Positions 4,937 through 12,273 of a stretch of 64,000 nt of DNA are shown piece after piece. The first letter of the stretch is position 1. Every line of letters begins with the position of its first letter. The notes beneath the pieces are model-generated. The model was not told the origin of the DNA, did no database searches, and saw nothing but the letters and a program-made list of their open reading frames with translations. The translations under genes were made by a program, and so were the position numbers. Source of the stretch: Ruania alkalisoli (GTDB lineage: Bacteria; Actinomycetota; Actinomycetes; Actinomycetales; Beutenbergiaceae); the NCBI RefSeq assembly GCF_014960965.1, contig NZ_CP063169.1, positions 3,443,581 to 3,507,580 of the forward strand, written 5' to 3'.

Positions 4937-5007
4937 CCTCCTCGCCTGTGGCTAGTCAGCCGCGTTCTCCGGCGAGCGCTCCGGCCAGAGCCGGCCGCCC
5001 GCGCGGA

Positions 5008-5400
5008 TCACTTGAGGGTGACGGTGGCGCCGGCGCCCTCGAGGGCCTCCTTGGCCTTGTCAGCGGCCTCCTTGTCGACACCCTCGAGCACGGGCTTCGG
5101 GGCGCCGTCGACGAGGTCCTTGGCCTCCTTCAGCCCAAGGCTGGTGAGACCGCGCACCTCCTTGATGACCTGGATCTTCTTGTCGCCGACGCTCTCGAGG
5201 ATGACGTCGAACTCGGTCTTCTCCTCCTCGGCGGCGGCCTCGCCACCACCGGCGGGGGCGCCACCGGCAACGGCGACGGCGGCCGGGGCCGCAGCGGTGA
5301 CCTCGAAGGTCTCCTCGAACTGCTTCACGAACTCGGAGAGCTCGATGAGGGTCAGTTCCTTGAAAGCGTCAATGAGCTCGTCGGTGCTGAGCTTCGCCAT
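5008..5400 (-). CDS. rplL: 50S ribosomal protein L7/L12
   Basis: This is the ribosomal stalk protein L7/L12 (130 aa), present in several copies per ribosome, where it recruits translation factors. The N-terminal dimerisation domain ([20 protein letters not shown]) is followed by an Ala/Gly-rich hinge at about residues 38-60. The C-terminal factor-binding domain carries [20 protein letters not shown] and [19 protein letters not shown]. It lies 83 bp after rplJ, on which the L12 dimers assemble, and precedes a terminator. Confidence 0.98.
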
Positions 5401-5483
5401 GATCGGCGTTCCTTCCTGTTGTGCCTGCTTGCGCGAGACGCGAGAAGCAGCTGGGGGTGGGTGGTGAGACGAGGTGCAACCGG

Positions 5484-6011
5484 TCAGGCAGCGGCCTCGT
5501 TCGCCTGCTTCTCACGCAGGGCTTCGATGGTGCGAACCGCCTTGGAGGCAGGAGCGTTGAAGACGTAGGCCGCCTGGTGCAGCTTGGCCTTCATCGCACC
5601 CGCGGCCTTGGCCAGGAGCACCTCGCGGGACTCGAGGTCCGCGAGCTTGGTGACGTCCTCGGCGCTGAGTGCGCGCCCGTCGAGCACACCACCCTTGACG
5701 ACGAGGTTCGGATTCGCCTTGGCGAAGTCACGCAGCCCCTTCGCCGCCTCGACCGGATCGCCCTCGACGAAGGCGATGGCCGTGGGTCCGGAGAACTGGC
5801 CGTCGAACGCGTCGACGCCGGCCTCCTTGGCAGCGATGTTGGTGAGCGTGTTCTTCACCACGGCATAGCTGGTGGTCGTGCCGAGCGTCGTGCGCAGCTC
5901 CTGGAGCTGGGCAACGGTGAGCCCGCGGTACTCGGTGAGCACTGCCGCCGAGGACTGGCGGAACTTCTCCGTCAGCTCAGCGACCGCTGCCGCCTTGTCA
6001 GGCCGTGCCAT
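5484..6011 (-). CDS. rplJ: 50S ribosomal protein L10
   Basis: L10 (175 aa) is the base of the ribosomal stalk and binds 23S rRNA and L7/L12. The protein starts [17 protein letters not shown] and contains the family segments [32 protein letters not shown] and [15 protein letters not shown]. The C-terminal helix that holds L12 is at the end. It is the first gene of a short rplJ-rplL unit with its own promoter and a structured leader. In other bacteria such a leader is the target of autogenous control by L10(L12)4; here that is inferred from position and structure. Confidence 0.98.
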
Positions 6012-6206
6012 GAGCCCTCCCTTCCGTGATGGTCCGCTGTCGTCCGCCGCACATGACGAAGGCCCCGCGCAGGAGCACGGGGCCTGAGCTCACACCACGC
6101 ACGAGGACGCGGATCGATCTGCAGAACACGTTCACCTGCGCTGGCTCCGCTACTGCGGAATTATCCCCGTCTGGTGACGGGCGACCGGCGGTCTGAGGCA
6201 GAGTCC
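6012..6206 (-). promoter_or_regulatory. Untranslated leader of rplJL with an L10-leader-like hairpin
   Basis: About 190 nt lie between the predicted promoter and the rplJ start. The strongest structure is AGGCCCCG/CGGGGCCT (arms at 6060-6067 and 6078-6085, 10-base loop), close to the start codon. Ribosomal protein L10 leaders in many bacteria bind L10 in this position. The match here is by location and one strong stem only; a covariance-model search (L10_leader) would test it. Confidence 0.5.
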
Positions 6207-6236
6207 AGGATAGCCCGTTCTCTGGCCAGTATCCAA
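6207..6236 (-). promoter_or_regulatory. Probable promoter for rplJL
   Basis: On the minus strand TTGGAT (6231-6236) and TATCCT (6207-6212) are 18 bases apart, forming a good -35/-10 pair that points at rplJ. Together with the terminator after rplA this makes rplKA and rplJL separate transcription units. The 367-bp gap 6012-6378 holds only the leader, this promoter and that terminator. Confidence 0.6.
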
Positions 6237-6307
6237 ATCTCCTAGGACGTGACGTCCACCACGCTCCGGCGCGGAGCACGCCTGCGTGCCGGAGCGCCGG
6301 ACGTACG

Positions 6308-6339
6308 ACGGCCCGGTCTGCCATGGCAGACCGGGCCGT
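6308..6339 (-). terminator. Long perfect hairpin after rplA
   Basis: ACGGCCCGGTCTGCC and its exact reverse complement (arms 6308-6322 and 6325-6339) form a stem of up to 15 bp, only 40 bp after the rplA stop codon. It is a probable terminator for secE-nusG-rplKA or rplKA. There is no T-run, as is usual in this GC range. Confidence 0.65.
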
Positions 6340-6378
6340 TCGTGACGAGGCTGACGATGCCTCACGAGAGTCGAAGAC

Positions 6379-7092
6379 TCAGACCGAGGCCTCGGTGAGG
6401 TTACGGGTCTTGGTGGCGTCGAGCGGGATGCCCGGGCCCATCGTGGTGCTCAGCACTGCCTTGGAGATGTAGCGCCCCTTCGAGGAGGACGGCTTGAGTC
6501 GCAGCACCTCGTCCAGCACCGCCGCATAGTTCTCGACGAGCTGGGTCTCGCTGAAGGAAGCCTTACCCACGATGAACTGCAGGTTGGCGTGCTTGTCGAC
6601 CCGGAAGTCCACCTTGCCGCCCTTGATGTCGGTGACGGCCTTGGTCACATCCATCGTCACAGTGCCGGTCTTCGGGTTCGGCATCAGTCCCCGCGGACCG
6701 AGCACGCGGCCGAGGCGGCCGACCTTACCCATGAGGTCCGGGGTCGCGACCGCTGCGTCGAAGTCGGTGTACCCACCGGCCACCTTCTCGATCAGCTCGT
6801 CGCCGCCGACCTCGTCGGCGCCGGCAGCGATCGCCTGCTCGGCACGCTCACCGGTGGCGAAGACGATCACCCGGGCGGTCTTACCGGTTCCGTGCGGCAG
6901 GTTGACCGTGCCGCGGACCATCTGGTCCGCCTTGCGGGGGTCGACACCGAGGCGGAAGACCACCTCAACCGTCTCGTCGAACTTCGAACTCGCGGTCTTC
7001 TTGGCGAGCTGCACCGCCTCCAGGGGCGGGTACACCTCGGCGCGGTCGATCAGCTCGGCCGCCTTACGGTAGTTCTTGCTGCGCGTGGTCAT
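6379..7092 (-). CDS. rplA: 50S ribosomal protein L1
   Basis: L1 (237 aa) binds 23S rRNA at the L1 stalk and in many bacteria also represses its own operon. Family segments visible are [27 protein letters not shown], the [16 protein letters not shown] signature and the C-terminal SSKGRYI and TMGPGIPLD. It follows rplK by about 100 bp in the usual rplKA order. Its length is normal. Confidence 0.98.
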
Positions 7093-7195
7093 CTGCTTCT
7101 CCTAGTTTTCGAGCAGTCGTGGTGCGGGCCCGCGCGGACCCTTCCACTGCGTTCCGAGGACGATCGTCCCCGGTGGTTGAGGCGATGGGCGAGGG

Positions 7196-7627
7196 TCAGT
7201 CCGAGACCGTGATGCCCATCGAACGAGCGGTACCGGCGATGATCTTCGACGCGGCGTCGATGTCGCGGGCGTTGAGGTCGGCCATCTTCGTCTCGGCGAT
7301 CTCGCGGACCTGAGCCGGCGTCAGCGCACCCACCTTGGCGGTGTGCGGAGTCGAGGAACCCTTGGCGACCCCGGCAGCCTTCTTGATCAGCTCGGCGGCC
7401 GGCGGCGTCTTGGTGATAAACGTGAAGGAACGGTCCTCATAGACCGTGATCTCCACCGGGATCACGTTCCCGCGCTGGGATTCGGTGGCCGCGTTGTAGG
7501 CCTTGCAGAACTCCATGATGTTCACGCCGTGCTGACCGAGCGCGGGGCCGATCGGCGGAGCGGGGTTGGCCGCACCGGCCTGGATCTGGAGCTTGATGAG
7601 GCCGGCGACCTTCTTCTTGGGGGGCAT
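7196..7627 (-). CDS. rplK: 50S ribosomal protein L11
   Basis: L11 (143 aa) sits at the GTPase-associated centre of the 50S subunit. The protein starts [18 protein letters not shown] and contains [19 protein letters not shown] and the C-terminal rRNA-binding part ending in the TARSMGITV signature. The frame stays open upstream to 7789, but that stretch is low-complexity hairpin sequence, and ATG at 7625-7627 matches the family start. L11 leads into rplA. Confidence 0.97.
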
Positions 7628-7682
7628 GCGATTTCTCTTTCCGGTGATGGGCCGACGCCGCGGGCGATGACCCGGTTGCAAA

Positions 7683-7853
7683 CCCGAAACTTGCTTCGGG
7701 TTCCGAGGGCGAAGCCCTCGGAAGTCTGTGAGCCTTGCTTCTTTCTGGGGGGGAACACGGGGGGCGAAGCCCCCTGTGCGTGGGGGCACACGGGGGGCGA
7801 AGCCCGAGTGCGCGTGTGTTCTCTTGGGGGTACACGGGGGCGAAGCCCCCGTG
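7683..7853. repeat. Cluster of GAA-loop hairpins between nusG and rplK
   Basis: The 230-bp gap between nusG and rplK (7628-7857) holds a tight array of inverted repeats. Hairpins lie at 7683-7700 (CCCGAA/TTCGGG), 7701-7723 (10-bp stem, GAA loop), 7756-7778 (10-bp stem with one wobble, GAA loop), 7795-7805 (4-bp core, GAA loop) and 7833-7853 (9-bp stem, GAA loop). The last three share the core ACACGGGGGGCGAAGCCC and are spaced about 38 bp apart. On both strands they contain the GCGAAGC core, known to fold as a very stable mini-hairpin. They could attenuate transcription or pause RNA polymerase between nusG and rplK. Confidence 0.8.
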
Positions 7854-7857
7854 CGTT

Positions 7858-8637
7858 TCAGATCTTGGCGACCTGGTTGAACGACAGCTCGACCGGAGTC
7901 TCGCGGCCGAAGATCGAGACGAGCACCTTAAGCTTCTGGCTCTCGGCGTTGATCTCGGAGATCGTGGCGGGCAGCGTGTCGAACGGTCCGTCGGTGACCG
8001 TGACGGACTCGCCGACCGTGAAGTCCACCTGCACAGCCGGTGAGGCGGACTTCCCACCAGCCGGCTGGGCCGCTGGGGTCTTCGCCTCGATGGTGCTCGC
8101 GAGCATGGACATGACCTCGTCCAAGGTCAGCGGAACCGGGGAGTGGGTGTGACCGACGAATCCGGTGACACCGGGGGTGTGGCGGACGGCGCCCCAGGAC
8201 TCGTCCGTGAGATCCATGCGGACGAGGACGTAGCTGGGGACCCGGACGCGGCGCACAACCTTGCGCACCGAGTTCTTGATCTCAACGACCTCTTCCATCG
8301 GTACCTCGACCTGGAAGATGTAGTCCTCCATGTTGAGGGACTGGATCCGGGACTCCAGGTTCGCCTTCACACGGTTCTCATAGCCGGCGTAGGAGTGGAT
8401 GACATACCAGTCGCCCGGCAGCGAGCGCAGCTCGGAGCGGAACGCGGCAACCGGGTCTTCGACCGCCTCGGCGGTCTCCCCCGCGGTGTCGGTGGTCGCA
8501 TCCTCGGCTCCCCCGTCACCGGTCGCGGCGTCGTCGCCGTCGGTGAGATCGACCGAGGTCTCCTCGGTCACGTCACCGGTGGGTTGAGTCTCTTCAGACA
8601 CGTCCTGACCTGCTTCCATGGTTCGTTGATCGTTCAC
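7858..8637 (-). CDS. nusG: Transcription termination/antitermination factor NusG
   Basis: NusG (259 aa) binds RNA polymerase and links it to Rho or to the ribosome. After an acidic, low-complexity N-terminal extension of about 85 residues comes the NGN domain ([21 protein letters not shown], then PMEEVVEIK and [11 protein letters not shown], with [12 protein letters not shown]). The KOW domain follows ([20 protein letters not shown], ending in [10 protein letters not shown]). The likely start is GTG at 8635-8637; an in-frame ATG lies 6 codons later. It follows secE by 34 bp and is followed by the hairpin cluster. Confidence 0.96.
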
Positions 8638-8671
8638 CGCTGTCTCGGGCCCGCGCCGGGCCTGGCGACCC

Positions 8672-9169
8672 TCAGCCGCCGAATGCCCAGAGAACCAGCC
8701 GGCCGAAGCCGAAGTCCAGCACCCCCACGTAGATCATCATCACCACGAGGAAGACGATGACGACACCGATGTAGGTGAACAACTCGTTCCGGGTCGGGGT
8801 GACGACCTTGCGCAGCTCCTGGACGACCTGGCGGACGAATCGAGCAATCCTGGCAAAGATGTTGGGCTCGACCTGCCGAGCAGCCTCGGCCTCCTTGCGG
8901 GACGCTGTCGGACGTCCCTTGGCCTGCCCCTGCGCTCGCACGGAGCGAGCGGCTGCGGCCGGTCGCGCGACGGCACTCGCGGCCTTGGACTCGCTCGTCG
9001 TGTCGGTCTCACCGTCGCCGGATTCATCGCCGGCTTCCGCGTCAGCGGCGCCCTCAGAGTCGTCGACGGCGCCTGGCTCAGTCTCGGGCGCGTCGAACTC
9101 GTCCCGAGGGTCGTCGCCACGACCGACGTCGTCGGGCTCGCCCGAATCGGCGTTGGGAGGAGTGCTCAC
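8672..9169 (-). CDS. secE: Preprotein translocase subunit SecE
   Basis: SecE (165 aa) is the clamp subunit of the SecYEG export channel. The functional part is the last 65 residues: an amphipathic segment ([20 protein letters not shown]), PTRNELFTY and one membrane span ([20 protein letters not shown]). The first 98 or so residues are an Asp/Glu- and then Ala-rich extension with no recognisable domain, longer than in most bacteria. The start is GTG at 9167-9169 with AAGGA ahead of it. It is cotranscribed with nusG, as is common. Confidence 0.95.
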
Positions 9170-9222
9170 GAGGATGTCCTTGGATCGACCGGTCGTTCAG
9201 GTGCCCGGGACGGGCGAGGAAG

Positions 9223-9295
9223 CAGGGCAGGAGGGACTCGAACCCACAACCGCCGGTTTTGGAGACCGGTGCGCTACCAATTGCGCCACTGCCCT
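9223..9295 (-). tRNA. tRNA-Trp (anticodon CCA)
   Basis: The minus strand folds into a full cloverleaf. The acceptor stem AGGGCAG/CTGCCCT pairs perfectly, the anticodon loop reads CTCCAAA with CCA in place, and the T-arm has GTTCGAGTC. The discriminator base is G and the 3' CCA is not encoded. It lies 53 bp before secE, the usual actinobacterial trpT-secE-nusG order. Confidence 0.97.
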
Positions 9296-9519
9296 TCGCA
9301 GATCGGCCCACCCTACTAGTACCCGCCGAGGCGCGAACCAGCGTGGCGGACGTCAACCACCGAAGCGAGTGTACCCGGCCGAGGGCACCGGGTCGAACCG
9401 CCCTCACCATGATCCCCGACACTCGCTGGCGCGCAGAACGCGTGACTTCCTGCCAGGTACGACCTCGCTGGATTCGGGGTGCACGGCGATGACGCAGCTA
9501 TGAGCGGCAGACGGCGAGC

Positions 9520-10974
9520 ATGGATACTAGCCGCGTGCCCCGTCGACGCCCCCGCTTCCGGATGAGTGTGCGCACACGAGTGCTCGCGGCACTCACGCTC
9601 CTCTCGGCGATGGCGTTGGCTGCGGCCGGGATCAGTGCCTACTCACTGGAGCGCGACCGAAGCGTGCTCCGCCTGGACGACTCCCTCGCCCGATCGGGCG
9701 CTGAGATCGAGACACTGGCCGAGATCGGAGTCGACCCCCAGACCGGGGAGCCGTTCGCCTCGGTCTCCTCGGTACTGCGCACCGTGCTCAGCCGGGTGGC
9801 ACCCGCGACGCACGAAGCGCTCGCAGGCTTCGTCGACGGTGAGATCACGCATGTGCCGGAGGTCGCCACGTCATTCCGGATCGAGGCGGACCCGGAACTG
9901 GTGGCTGCCCTGGCACCCGCAAGCGGATGGGAAGAGCCCGACCTCCTCACGATCGAGACCTCGCAGCGCACGTACCGGGTGCTCGCCCTCCCGATCCGCA
10001 CCGACCCGCCCAGCGAACAAGGCGCCATGGTTCTCGCCTTCGACCTCGACGCCGAGTACGAGAATCTCAACGAAACGTTCCGGACCTACGCGCTGGTGGC
10101 CGTCGCCTCGCTCGCCTGGATCACGCTCATCGCCTGGTTCGTCGTCGGTCAGCTCCTCGCACCGATCAAGGTGCTGCGCGCCACAGCGGACGAAGTGAGT
10201 TCCTCGGACGACCTCAGCCGCCGCATACCCGTGGCCGGCAATGATGACCTCGCACTGCTGACAGAGACGTTCAACCGGATGTTCGCCCGGCTCGAGCAGG
10301 CCTTCGCCTCCCAGCGGCAACTGCTCGACGACGCCGGGCACGAGCTCCGGACGCCGCTGACGATCGTGCGCGGCCACCTGGAGCTGATGGACCCCGCAGA
10401 CACCACCGAGGTCGCGAGCACGCGGACACTGGCCCTCGATGAGCTCGACCGGATGAACATGCTGGTGGACGACCTCATGACGCTCGCCCGGTCTCGTCGT
10501 CCCGACTTCGTGACCCGCACTGACGTCGACCTCGCGCTGCTCACCGACGACGTGCTCGTGAAGGCCACGTCGCTGGGCGACCGGCGCTGGATACTGGACG
10601 AGCTCGCTGACGTGCAGATCCACGCAGATCCCCGGCGACTGACGCAGGCGCTGCTCCAGCTGGCCTCAAATGCGGTGAAGTTCTCCGGCGAGGGTTCGAC
10701 CGTCGCGATCGGATCGGCTGCCGATGCCGGCGAGATCCGCCTCTGGGTCCGAGACGTTGGCGCCGGGATCGGCGAGGCAGATCAGCAGCGCATCTTCGAC
10801 AGATTCGAGCGACTTGACCCGACGGTGGACGGCAGCGGGCTCGGCCTGCCCATCGTCGCCTCGATCGCCCAGGCCCACGGCGGCCGGGTGAGCGTCACCT
10901 CGACGCCGGGTCACGGTTCCACGTTCACCATCCACATCCCACACCAGGCCGCCGAGGTCGAGGAAGGCAGGTAG
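9520..10974 (+). CDS. Two-component sensor histidine kinase
   Basis: This 484-aa membrane kinase has a first membrane span at about residues 21-43, an extracytoplasmic sensor region of about 145 residues, a second span at about 188-212 and a HAMP linker. The dimerisation domain follows, with the phosphorylated histidine at His274 (DDAGHELRTPLT). The ATPase has the N box (LLQLASNAVKFS) and the G boxes (VRDVGAGIGE, GSGLGLPIV). It probably senses an envelope signal and phosphorylates the regulator encoded 7 bp downstream. The ligand cannot be read from sequence. The gene opens a patch of accessory genes beside tRNA-Trp. Confidence 0.93.
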   Translation: MDTSRVPRRRPRFRMSVRTRVLAALTLLSAMALAAAGISAYSLERDRSVLRLDDSLARSGAEIETLAEIGVDPQTGEPFASVSSVLRTVLSRVAPATHEALAGFVDGEITHVPEVATSFRIEADPELVAALAPASGWEEPDLLTIETSQRTYRVLALPIRTDPPSEQGAMVLAFDLDAEYENLNETFRTYALVAVASLAWITLIAWFVVGQLLAPIKVLRATADEVSSSDDLSRRIPVAGNDDLALLTETFNRMFARLEQAFASQRQLLDDAGHELRTPLTIVRGHLELMDPADTTEVASTRTLALDELDRMNMLVDDLMTLARSRRPDFVTRTDVDLALLTDDVLVKATSLGDRRWILDELADVQIHADPRRLTQALLQLASNAVKFSGEGSTVAIGSAADAGEIRLWVRDVGAGIGEADQQRIFDRFERLDPTVDGSGLGLPIVASIAQAHGGRVSVTSTPGHGSTFTIHIPHQAAEVEEGR

Positions 10975-10981
10975 AGCACAC

Positions 10982-11641
10982 GTGAGCCAGATCCTGATCG
11001 CCGAGGACGAGGAACGGATCGCCTCGTTCGTCGCCAAAGGCCTGCGCTCGGCCGGCTATGTCCCGACGACGGTCGCCACCGGTGAGCAGGCGATCGACCT
11101 GGCGAGCACGGGCGAGTTCGACCTGCTGGTGCTCGACCTCGGCCTTCCCGATCGCGACGGCTTCGATGTCCTGAGCACGGTGCGCTCCCTGGGCGTGGCT
11201 ATCCCCGTCATCATCCTCACCGCCCGGTCCTCGGTCACCGACACGGTCGCCGGTCTTGAAGGAGGTGCCGATGACTACATGGCCAAGCCGTTCCGTTTCG
11301 AAGAACTGCTGGCTCGGGTCCGGCTGCGGCTACGGTCCGAGAACGGCGGCTCCGAATCGACCGTTCTCAACCACGCTGGTCTCTCGTTGGACCTACGCAC
11401 CCGAAAGGCTCATACCGACGGCCGGGACGTGGAACTCTCCGCGCGGGAGTTCACCCTGGCCGAGACCTTCCTGCGCAGCCCGGGACAGGTCCTGAGCCGG
11501 GAGCAACTGCTCTCGCGGGTCTGGGGCTATGACTTCGATCCAGGGTCGAATGTCGTCGACGTCTACGTGCGATACCTGCGTAAGAAGCTCGGGGCTGAAC
11601 GGTTCGAGACGGTGCGTGGGATGGGGTACCGCCTGGTCTGA
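10982..11641 (+). CDS. Two-component response regulator, OmpR/PhoB family
   Basis: This 219-aa protein has a receiver domain with the acidic pair at residues 8-10 (AEDEE), the phosphoacceptor Asp52 (LLVLDLGLPDRDG) and the conserved Thr and Lys (ILTARS, YMAKPF). A winged-helix DNA-binding domain follows, ending VYVRYLRKKLG and RGMGYRLV. The start is GTG at 10982. It is cotranscribed with the kinase 7 bp upstream. Its targets are unknown; the oppositely oriented Ser/Pro-rich proteins that converge on it are plausible ones. Confidence 0.94.
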   Translation: MSQILIAEDEERIASFVAKGLRSAGYVPTTVATGEQAIDLASTGEFDLLVLDLGLPDRDGFDVLSTVRSLGVAIPVIILTARSSVTDTVAGLEGGADDYMAKPFRFEELLARVRLRLRSENGGSESTVLNHAGLSLDLRTRKAHTDGRDVELSAREFTLAETFLRSPGQVLSREQLLSRVWGYDFDPGSNVVDVYVRYLRKKLGAERFETVRGMGYRLV

Positions 11642-11673
11642 GACGGCACCAGCCATCTCGGACGGCGTAGCCG

Positions 11674-11725
11674 ACAGCGATGTGCCGAGTCCCGCCAGAT
11701 CGTGCGGAACTCGGCACATCGCTGT
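11674..11725. terminator. Bidirectional terminator with a 17-bp stem
   Basis: ACAGCGATGTGCCGAGT (11674-11690) and its exact reverse complement (11709-11725) surround an 18-base loop in the gap between two convergent genes. It can serve the two-component operon on the plus strand and the Ser/Pro-rich gene on the minus strand. Confidence 0.7.
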
Positions 11726-11748
11726 GGTCCGGTCAGACTTCCCGGCGG

Positions 11749-12273
11749 TCAGTCACCGGAGTCGGCGGAGGGTGCGCTCTGAGCCGACTCTGCCGACTCA
11801 GCGCTCGCGGGCGAGGCCGGGCTCGCGGGCGAGGGCGGGGACACCGGGCTGGCCGGCGACGGAGCCGACGCCGGGCTCGGTGCAGAGGCCGGGCTCGGTG
11901 CAGAGGCCGGGCTGGCCGGGGACTGCGCACTCACCGGACTCGGTGCGGAGACCGGACTTGCGGGCGATGGCGCACTCGCAGGGCTGGCCGGGGACTGCGC
12001 ACTCACCGGGCTCGCGGGCGTCTGAGCGCTCGCGGCAGTTGGTGCCGATGCCGCCGTCACGGACGTGATGGCGCTCGAGGATGTCACCACCGCCGGATCC
12101 ACGGTCACGTCCTGACCCACCACGCGGGGCAGCGAGGCAGCCTGGACACCGTCGACCTCGATGGCCGAGCCCTCGTAGTCATCTCCGGGATCGGCCATCG
12201 CACTCACGGCGCCGCCGGCGACCGCCACCACACCAAGCGCTCCCGTCACGATCCAAGCATTGCGCGTCTTCAT
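11749..12273 (-). CDS. Ser/Pro/Ala-rich repetitive secreted or membrane-anchored protein, paralog 1
   Basis: The 174-aa product starts MKTRNAWIVTGALG with a short hydrophobic segment (residues about 6-25) that could be a signal peptide or an anchor. A small ordered-looking part follows (EGSAIEVDGVQAASLP, then VVGQDVTVDPAVV). The last 100 residues or so are a low-complexity run of SPASP, SAPSPASP and SAQ units ending SADSGD. The start at ATG 12271-12273 has GAAGGAGA before it; the frame stays open further upstream without a ribosome site. I do not recognise a family. The next gene upstream encodes a paralog sharing both ends, so the pair arose by duplication. A cell-wall-spanning or surface role is only a guess. 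Confidence 0.7.
   Translation of the reverse strand: MKTRNAWIVTGALGVVAVAGGAVSAMADPGDDYEGSAIEVDGVQAASLPRVVGQDVTVDPAVVTSSSAITSVTAASAPTAASAQTPASPVSAQSPASPASAPSPASPVSAPSPVSAQSPASPASAPSPASAPSPASAPSPASPVSPPSPASPASPASAESAESAQSAPSADSGD

Follow-up and report, generated by a model that had tools for sequence, protein, structure and literature searches.

Background

REP elements are described as palindromes of 20-40 nt that lie mostly outside genes, often on their 3' side, sometimes in arrays and sometimes within genes, and for which RNA roles have been proposed (excerpts of PMC12306157, PMC3733652 and PMC1590033). In E. coli, REPs less than 16 nt from a stop codon are stated to lower translation (PMC12306157, in a passage citing its ref. 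17), and many bacteria are reported to have stem-loops concentrated on the 3' side of genes, where they may affect mRNA stability (excerpt of PMC1590033).

Here we describe an array of palindromic units between nusG and rplK of Ruania alkalisoli, in a window (the whole stretch of DNA analysed) of 64,000 nt taken from a single-contig genome of 4.45 Mb (its bases 3,443,581-3,507,580), called G000 below. By analogy, the unit most resembles REP elements near stop codons: it is 32 nt long with a 10-bp stem, most of its sites in two genomes outside the genus (8 in G021, 6 in G221) lie outside genes, and in the window genome it falls within the ≤15 nt of an upstream stop that mark a post-stop REP. 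REP elements are high-copy (usually >100, according to an abstract), whereas the most that we found in one genome was 10 matches to our covariance model R1; the window genome has a single unit locus, with two R1 matches at E≤0.01, both in the nusG-rplK gap. Where REP elements carry a GTAG or CGTC tag (excerpt of PMC3733652), most units in our alignment A1 end in GTGTNCCCCC, and neither tag occurs among its 16 units. No earlier description of the unit family was found in the open PMC literature.

Clustered or I-shaped hairpin terminators resemble the array in that a stop is followed by a number of closely spaced GC-rich hairpins and no U-tract; the array differs from them in its sequence-conserved repeat unit, its place inside an apparent operon and the absence of a promoter-like site before the next gene. 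Rickettsia palindromic elements are found in frame inside proteins, as are the unit copies in PurQ and CarB described below; in contrast, nine of the 17 unit sites considered here lie directly 3' of genes.

Anatomy of the nusG-rplK gap

The genes run on the minus strand in the order secE, nusG, rplK, rplA, with 230 nt between nusG and rplK. In transcript sense the gap contains, in this order, three units, of which the second is degenerate, then a purine-rich spacer, two more hairpins and finally the conserved leader of rplK:

7858..8637, minus strand: nusG, 259 aa, the upstream gene (open reading frame and homologues); its stop codon adjoins the array
7826..7857, minus strand: unit 1, a 10-bp hairpin followed by GUGUA-CCCCC; 54.1 bits with R1, in a search of 95 sources that covered part of the loci, a score that is not independent, as unit 1 is one of the model's own training sequences
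7782..7813, minus strand: unit 2, a degenerate copy whose stem has an internal mismatch loop; not among the two R1 matches of its own genome at E≤0.01
7749..7782, minus strand: unit 3, a hairpin whose stem has one A-C mismatch, followed by GUGUU and a run of C that reaches 7747; 41.7 bits with R1
7724..7746, minus strand: purine-rich spacer, AGAAAGAAGCAAGG..
7701..7723, minus strand: hairpin B, 10 bp with a UUC loop, kept in G005 and G001
7681..7702, minus strand: hairpin C, with one compensatory change between G000 and G001
7648..7679, minus strand: rplK leader stem with an internal loop, conserved, outside the array
7196..7627, minus strand: rplK, the downstream gene (open reading frame)

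The unit (GCAC-GGGGG-CUUCG-CCCCC-GUGU-N-CCCCC in transcript sense, about 32 nt) exceeds its hairpin by an ACGCAC lead and a GUGUNCCCCC tail, and the first hairpin of the array begins 3 nt after the nusG stop. A similar purine-rich spacer occurs in G005 and, judged by eye, follows the units of G054; G001 lacks it. The initial annotation had reported five inverted repeats between the two genes, and all five are present within 7681-7853:

7681-7702: 8 bp, 6-nt loop
7701-7723: 10 bp, GAA loop
7756-7778: 9 of 10 positions paired, GAA loop
about 7789-7811: imperfect, GAA loop
7833-7853: 9 bp, GAA loop

The longer core said to be shared by three of them was also recovered, ACACGGGGGGCGAAGCCC occurring in two exact copies and a third close one. 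The four GAA loops are those of the plus strand, which is the template for these minus-strand genes; the RNA therefore has UUC loops, and it is on the template strand that the GCGAAGC DNA mini-hairpin falls. Units of other genomes with CTCCG or CAAG loops keep the stem and have no such heptamer. The emphasis originally placed on this mini-hairpin therefore finds no support.

No U-tract follows the array hairpins (the longest T-run in the gap is ≤3), no TANNNT occurs in the gap, no -10-like site lies between the array and rplK, and a scan of 5000-12000 for promoters and terminators returned no match. The hairpin-then-U-tract arrangement of a canonical intrinsic terminator is thus not seen in the array. 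With neither a TANNNT site nor a T-run above 3, RNA polymerase probably reads through, so that rplK would be transcribed across the array, and full termination here is unlikely. These signals favour protection or processing of an RNA 3' end, or effects at the stop codon, over full termination. The array may still terminate nusG transcription in part, as first suggested, although the missing U-tract and -10-like site count against it. Read-through need not apply in G021, whose nusG-rplK gap contains TATGAT, by eye a possible promoter.

Fold stability and copy number in the window genome

The fold predicted for the gap has a z of -3.4, with none of 200 dinucleotide shuffles equally stable; a second calculation gave -3.8, a value reached by 2 of 80 random 230-nt windows. 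In absolute folding energy the gap is ordinary for DNA as GC-rich as this: 307 of 555 windows are no less stable. The sequence GGGCGAAGCCC occurs four times in the 64-kb window, always inside the gap and within about 140 bp, and 13 times on both strands of the whole 4.45-Mb genome; the nine copies outside the gap all lie in long open frames and prove little by themselves, because the genome is so GC-rich. The exact 15-mer GGGGGCTTCGCCCCC is found, among 24 genomes of the family, in the nusG-rplK gap only, in three genomes. What distinguishes the gap is the repetition of one sequence and not its absolute stability.

Other identities were considered for the array. It is not an ordinary dispersed repeat of the window genome, since core copies are few and R1 matches are confined to the gap; the many identical copies by which such a repeat would be recognised did not appear in the genome search. 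On anatomy, its palindromic units and irregular 33-55-nt spacing speak against a CRISPR-like array. BLAST against phage and plasmid collections returned no match to the array and so gave no sign of such an origin, and four matches of the unit pattern on viral contigs show no array and were judged coding by eye. At gathering scores Rfam recognised only tRNAs in the window; an E-value search of 7500-7900 gave two matches, both far below the gathering score.

Presence and history in the genus

Three of the eight genomes of the genus carry the array (G000, G005 and G001), and G002, G003, G004, G006 and G007 do not; 'Candidatus Ruania gallistercoris' and G003, which belongs to this genus, have identical nusG-rplK gaps. 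A tree of NusG, RplK and RplA has the form ((G001,G004),(G006,(G000,G005))) apart from (G002,(G003,G007)); some of its forks are moderately supported (87/92 and 89/89). Unit 1 and hairpins B and C occur in both G000 and G001, and in the same order, which makes one gain and two losses the simplest history; the array was probably lost in G006 and G004, two gains being a possible alternative. Its absence from these close relatives of carriers indicates that it is dispensable.

Although G000 and G001 differ at 144 of 296 fourfold sites, about half, they agree at 87% of positions over 76 nt of the array. A double change in hairpin C, from C-G to T-A, keeps the pairing. Gene conversion between units could keep them alike without selection, an argument from which hairpins B and C are exempt. 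G005 contains a 76-nt tandem duplication and differs in unit number from both G000 and G001. In G006 (L108), at the place where its relatives carry the array, the 3' end of nusG, stop codon included, is repeated in tandem as a stretch of 22 nt. The genus supplies natural with/without pairs for effects of post-stop hairpins, namely G000 and G005 versus G006, and G001 versus G004.

The unit elsewhere in the order

A strict unit pattern was run on 396 genomes of the order, with the reversed pattern as control. It gave 11 matches in five genomes, the control none; eight lie in nusG-rplK gaps (G000, G001, G005, G021) and three directly behind the stops of a bS22-like gene (G021) and of rpsD and rpsQ (G054). 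That the unit is confined to the nusG-rplK gap and the ends of ribosomal-protein genes, as these 11 of 11 would have it, was weakened by the further sites of the covariance model. R1 was built from seven units, among them three G021 sites (nusG, bS22-like, purQ) that had come from a location-blind search with the window array; the G054 pair came from a location-blind pattern. At E≤0.01 it made 40 matches in 17 of the 396 genomes, under stricter filters by which weak matches were lost. Three genomes outside the genus have several copies, together 17 sites, with gene names read from translated ends and not from database searches:

G021, 8 sites: nusG, bS22-like gene, ABC-permease end, end of a biotin-carboxylase gene, purQ, hutH antisense, whiA-gap, 5' of gltA
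G221, 6 sites: nusG (E=0.0015), rpsN, atpA, CitE-like gene, a perfect tandem array by a meaA-like gene (five copies of 42 bp, L308:1029-1236) made of a related hairpin unit whose loop is CAAG, a weak site (E=0.004)
G054, 3 sites: rpsD, rpsQ, inside carB

Nine of the 17 are sense-oriented and ≤17 nt from a stop codon (binomial 3e-15 with an assumed chance rate of 0.8%). Six follow nusG or ribosomal-protein genes, namely nusG twice, the bS22-like gene, rpsD, rpsQ and rpsN (1.5e-7, or 7e-5 without nusG, by a binomial that assumes 65 of 4200 genes and independent sites); the other 11 are not at translation genes. A 3'-UTR role does not suit the eight sites beyond the nine, of which two are sense within or at the end of a frame (carB, the biotin-carboxylase gene) and six are opposite to the nearest called gene, among them the copies in purQ and hutH. 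The stop codon and the first G-run are 5-9 nt apart in six nusG cases (7 nt in the window genome) and 6-17 nt apart in seven other post-stop sites (7 nt, measured by eye, at the ABC-permease site). Segeticoccus rhizosphaerae (L055) has a variant unit 6 nt behind its nusG stop. Counting beyond the genus of the window, three further genera have a unit at the 3' end of nusG. For the NusG-sensitive or autoregulatory site of the initial annotation, which is conjectural, this recurrence at one gene end across genera is what is new here.

The copies in purQ (L142, with the unit on the opposite strand) and carB (L311) can be read in frame through the enzymes and are putative short inserts within these conserved proteins. 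They suggest that the unit has been mobile. The mobile repeat envisaged in the initial annotation is supported as an origin, the unit being a sparsely dispersed palindrome with copies inside genes in other genomes of the order; in the window genome copies were found nowhere outside the gap.

The surroundings of all 40 R1 matches were inspected. The 17 sites leave out the matches of the three genus carriers, a further weak match in G005 (C40:111263, E=1.8e-4) and the lone weak matches of 11 genomes. In G037, G055, G071, G097 and G098 the single match belongs to a different repeat, GGGGCTCCGCCCCCGNNCCCCCGGCC; in G034, G084, G095, G312 and G375 it looks coding by eye, and in G067 it resembles a terminator-like hairpin after a gene. 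Yet another repeat, GGGGCTCCGCCCCC-G-NN-CCCCCGGCC plus flanks (CACACCCCCGGCC in L194), was seen at L188, L189, L190, L191, L192 and L194 in genomes of three families, and looks like a plasmid or mobile-element motif.

A proposed role and its rivals

We propose tentatively, at a probability of roughly 0.45, that the array is a local run of REP-like palindromes which function as RNA in the nusG-rplK message, setting or protecting the end of nusG mRNA and uncoupling nusG from rplKA. This proposal builds on a unit that sits 3 nt behind the nusG stop, recurs in three species of the genus and has a sparse, post-stop-biased spread elsewhere; it supposes that nusG and rplK-rplA share one transcript and that the hairpins work as RNA. 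The hairpins would fold once the terminating ribosome leaves nusG and would block 3'-to-5' decay that sets in once the message has been cut by an endonuclease, or released through Rho, further downstream, for which the purine-rich spacer is a possible place; they may also slow ribosomes at the nusG stop codon. The nusG and rplKA parts of the operon would thereby gain separate lifetimes or outputs. It is probable that the unit came in as a mobile palindrome, and extra units would have come from local duplication, giving redundancy. The translation effect of REPs, the clustering of stem-loops 3' of genes and a pro-pausing NusG serve as analogies for such a mechanism. In a broader version, which we find quite doubtful, the unit is a mobile post-stop RNA element of conserved sequence in the order, repeatedly recruited to nusG and ribosomal-protein genes as a cis-regulator that holds or releases the terminating ribosome at the nusG stop or sets the 3' end, tuning the ratio of the coupling factor NusG to ribosomal proteins, with the array as its dose-adjustable form.

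It is somewhat unlikely, in our view, that the array acts instead as a partial terminator or pause cluster, whose tandem U-less ('I-shaped') hairpins, aided by NusG or Rho, would free some polymerases after nusG and lower rplK-rplA, so that NusG could tune its own operon. Hairpin clusters near stop codons are described as common termination units, mostly without a U-tract (excerpt of PMC8355165), Streptomyces is reported to have structured, U-poor 3' ends (excerpt of PMC8269248), and mycobacterial NusG is reported to be pro-pausing and to assist suboptimal terminators (PMC12288462). Bases left unpaired in the predicted fold of the gap are rich in C and poor in G (41 C vs 12 G). E. coli Rho binds C-rich RNA. 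That of M. tuberculosis is said to favour purine-rich RNA (excerpt of PMC12288462). The location of the array inside an apparent single operon speaks against termination, as do the empty scan and the lack of a U-tract and of a promoter-like site before rplK. The mycobacterial polymerase, moreover, reportedly requires a U-tract, going by the title of Czyz et al. 2014.

A mobile palindrome could also have landed behind nusG and grown by slippage like a minisatellite, as selfish or neutral DNA with no host function. The unit number that sets G005 apart from the other two carriers, its tandem duplication and the perfect 5 x 42-bp array of G221 are what such growth would leave, and the absence of the array from G006 and G004 and the unit copies inside genes agree with it. 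We nevertheless think it rather unlikely, given the hairpins kept between G000 and G001 while about half of the fourfold sites differ, the sense-oriented post-stop bias and the recurrence at the nusG end in further genera. A structure at the DNA level, a cruciform or a template-strand G-quadruplex, might instead stop polymerase or serve as a site for a nucleoid protein; the paired G-runs of the plus strand (e.g., GGGGGGGAACACGGGGGG) are in its favour. This is very improbable: the G-runs compete with strong hairpins, and an asymmetric unit that has the orientation of the upstream gene at all 13 tabulated post-stop sites (chosen as such sites) fits RNA better than a DNA structure. Read as an RNA element at the nusG 3' end, the locus offers a small, testable case of a mobile palindrome possibly co-opted for 3'-end RNA control, between the gene of a transcription factor and ribosomal-protein genes, in a phylum whose U-tract terminators are reported scarce, at least among mycobacteria (PMC12288462).

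Hairpins and leaders in related gaps

We compared 104 nusG loci (80 kept from a contig scan and 24 from a second set, with species partly overlapping). In 77 both the leader pattern and the stop of nusG could be recognised; 26 had no leader pattern and one no stop. These 77 loci comprise 71 different gaps, 63 of them with a helix of at least 4 bp by a count that has no separate control. The first helix starts a median of 5 nt behind the nusG stop, and the mean fold z is -2.2 against each gap's own shuffles. Most relatives thus have some hairpin behind nusG, of which the array is an elaborate version.

The rplK leader (window 7648-7679, minus strand) is a nearly invariant stretch of about 32 nt, GCAACCGGGUCAUCGCCC-NN-GGCGUCGGCCCA, forming a stem with an internal loop. 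Across 55 different 42-nt sequences its nine predicted pairs depart only by G-T (four rows, one pair) and one T-T, a test of pairing that is fair for the 3' half alone, since the 5' half belonged to the search pattern. Rfam has no match to it. As the L1 site of Actinobacteria is placed before rplA (excerpt of a review, PMC10931766), the rplK leader may be another regulator.

Conserved leaders were also seen, by eye, before rplN (GUUCGGCCAGGCUCGC..GAGAACCGGCACGAC; L196-L217) and rpoA (GCGUCAUAUAGCGGACGCC; L218-L239). In a comparison in which the upstream stop was recognised automatically in few rows, the gaps that separate rplN from rpsQ, and rpoA from the gene ahead of it (rpsD in G054, rpsK in most rows), appeared, again by eye, to be of similar build.
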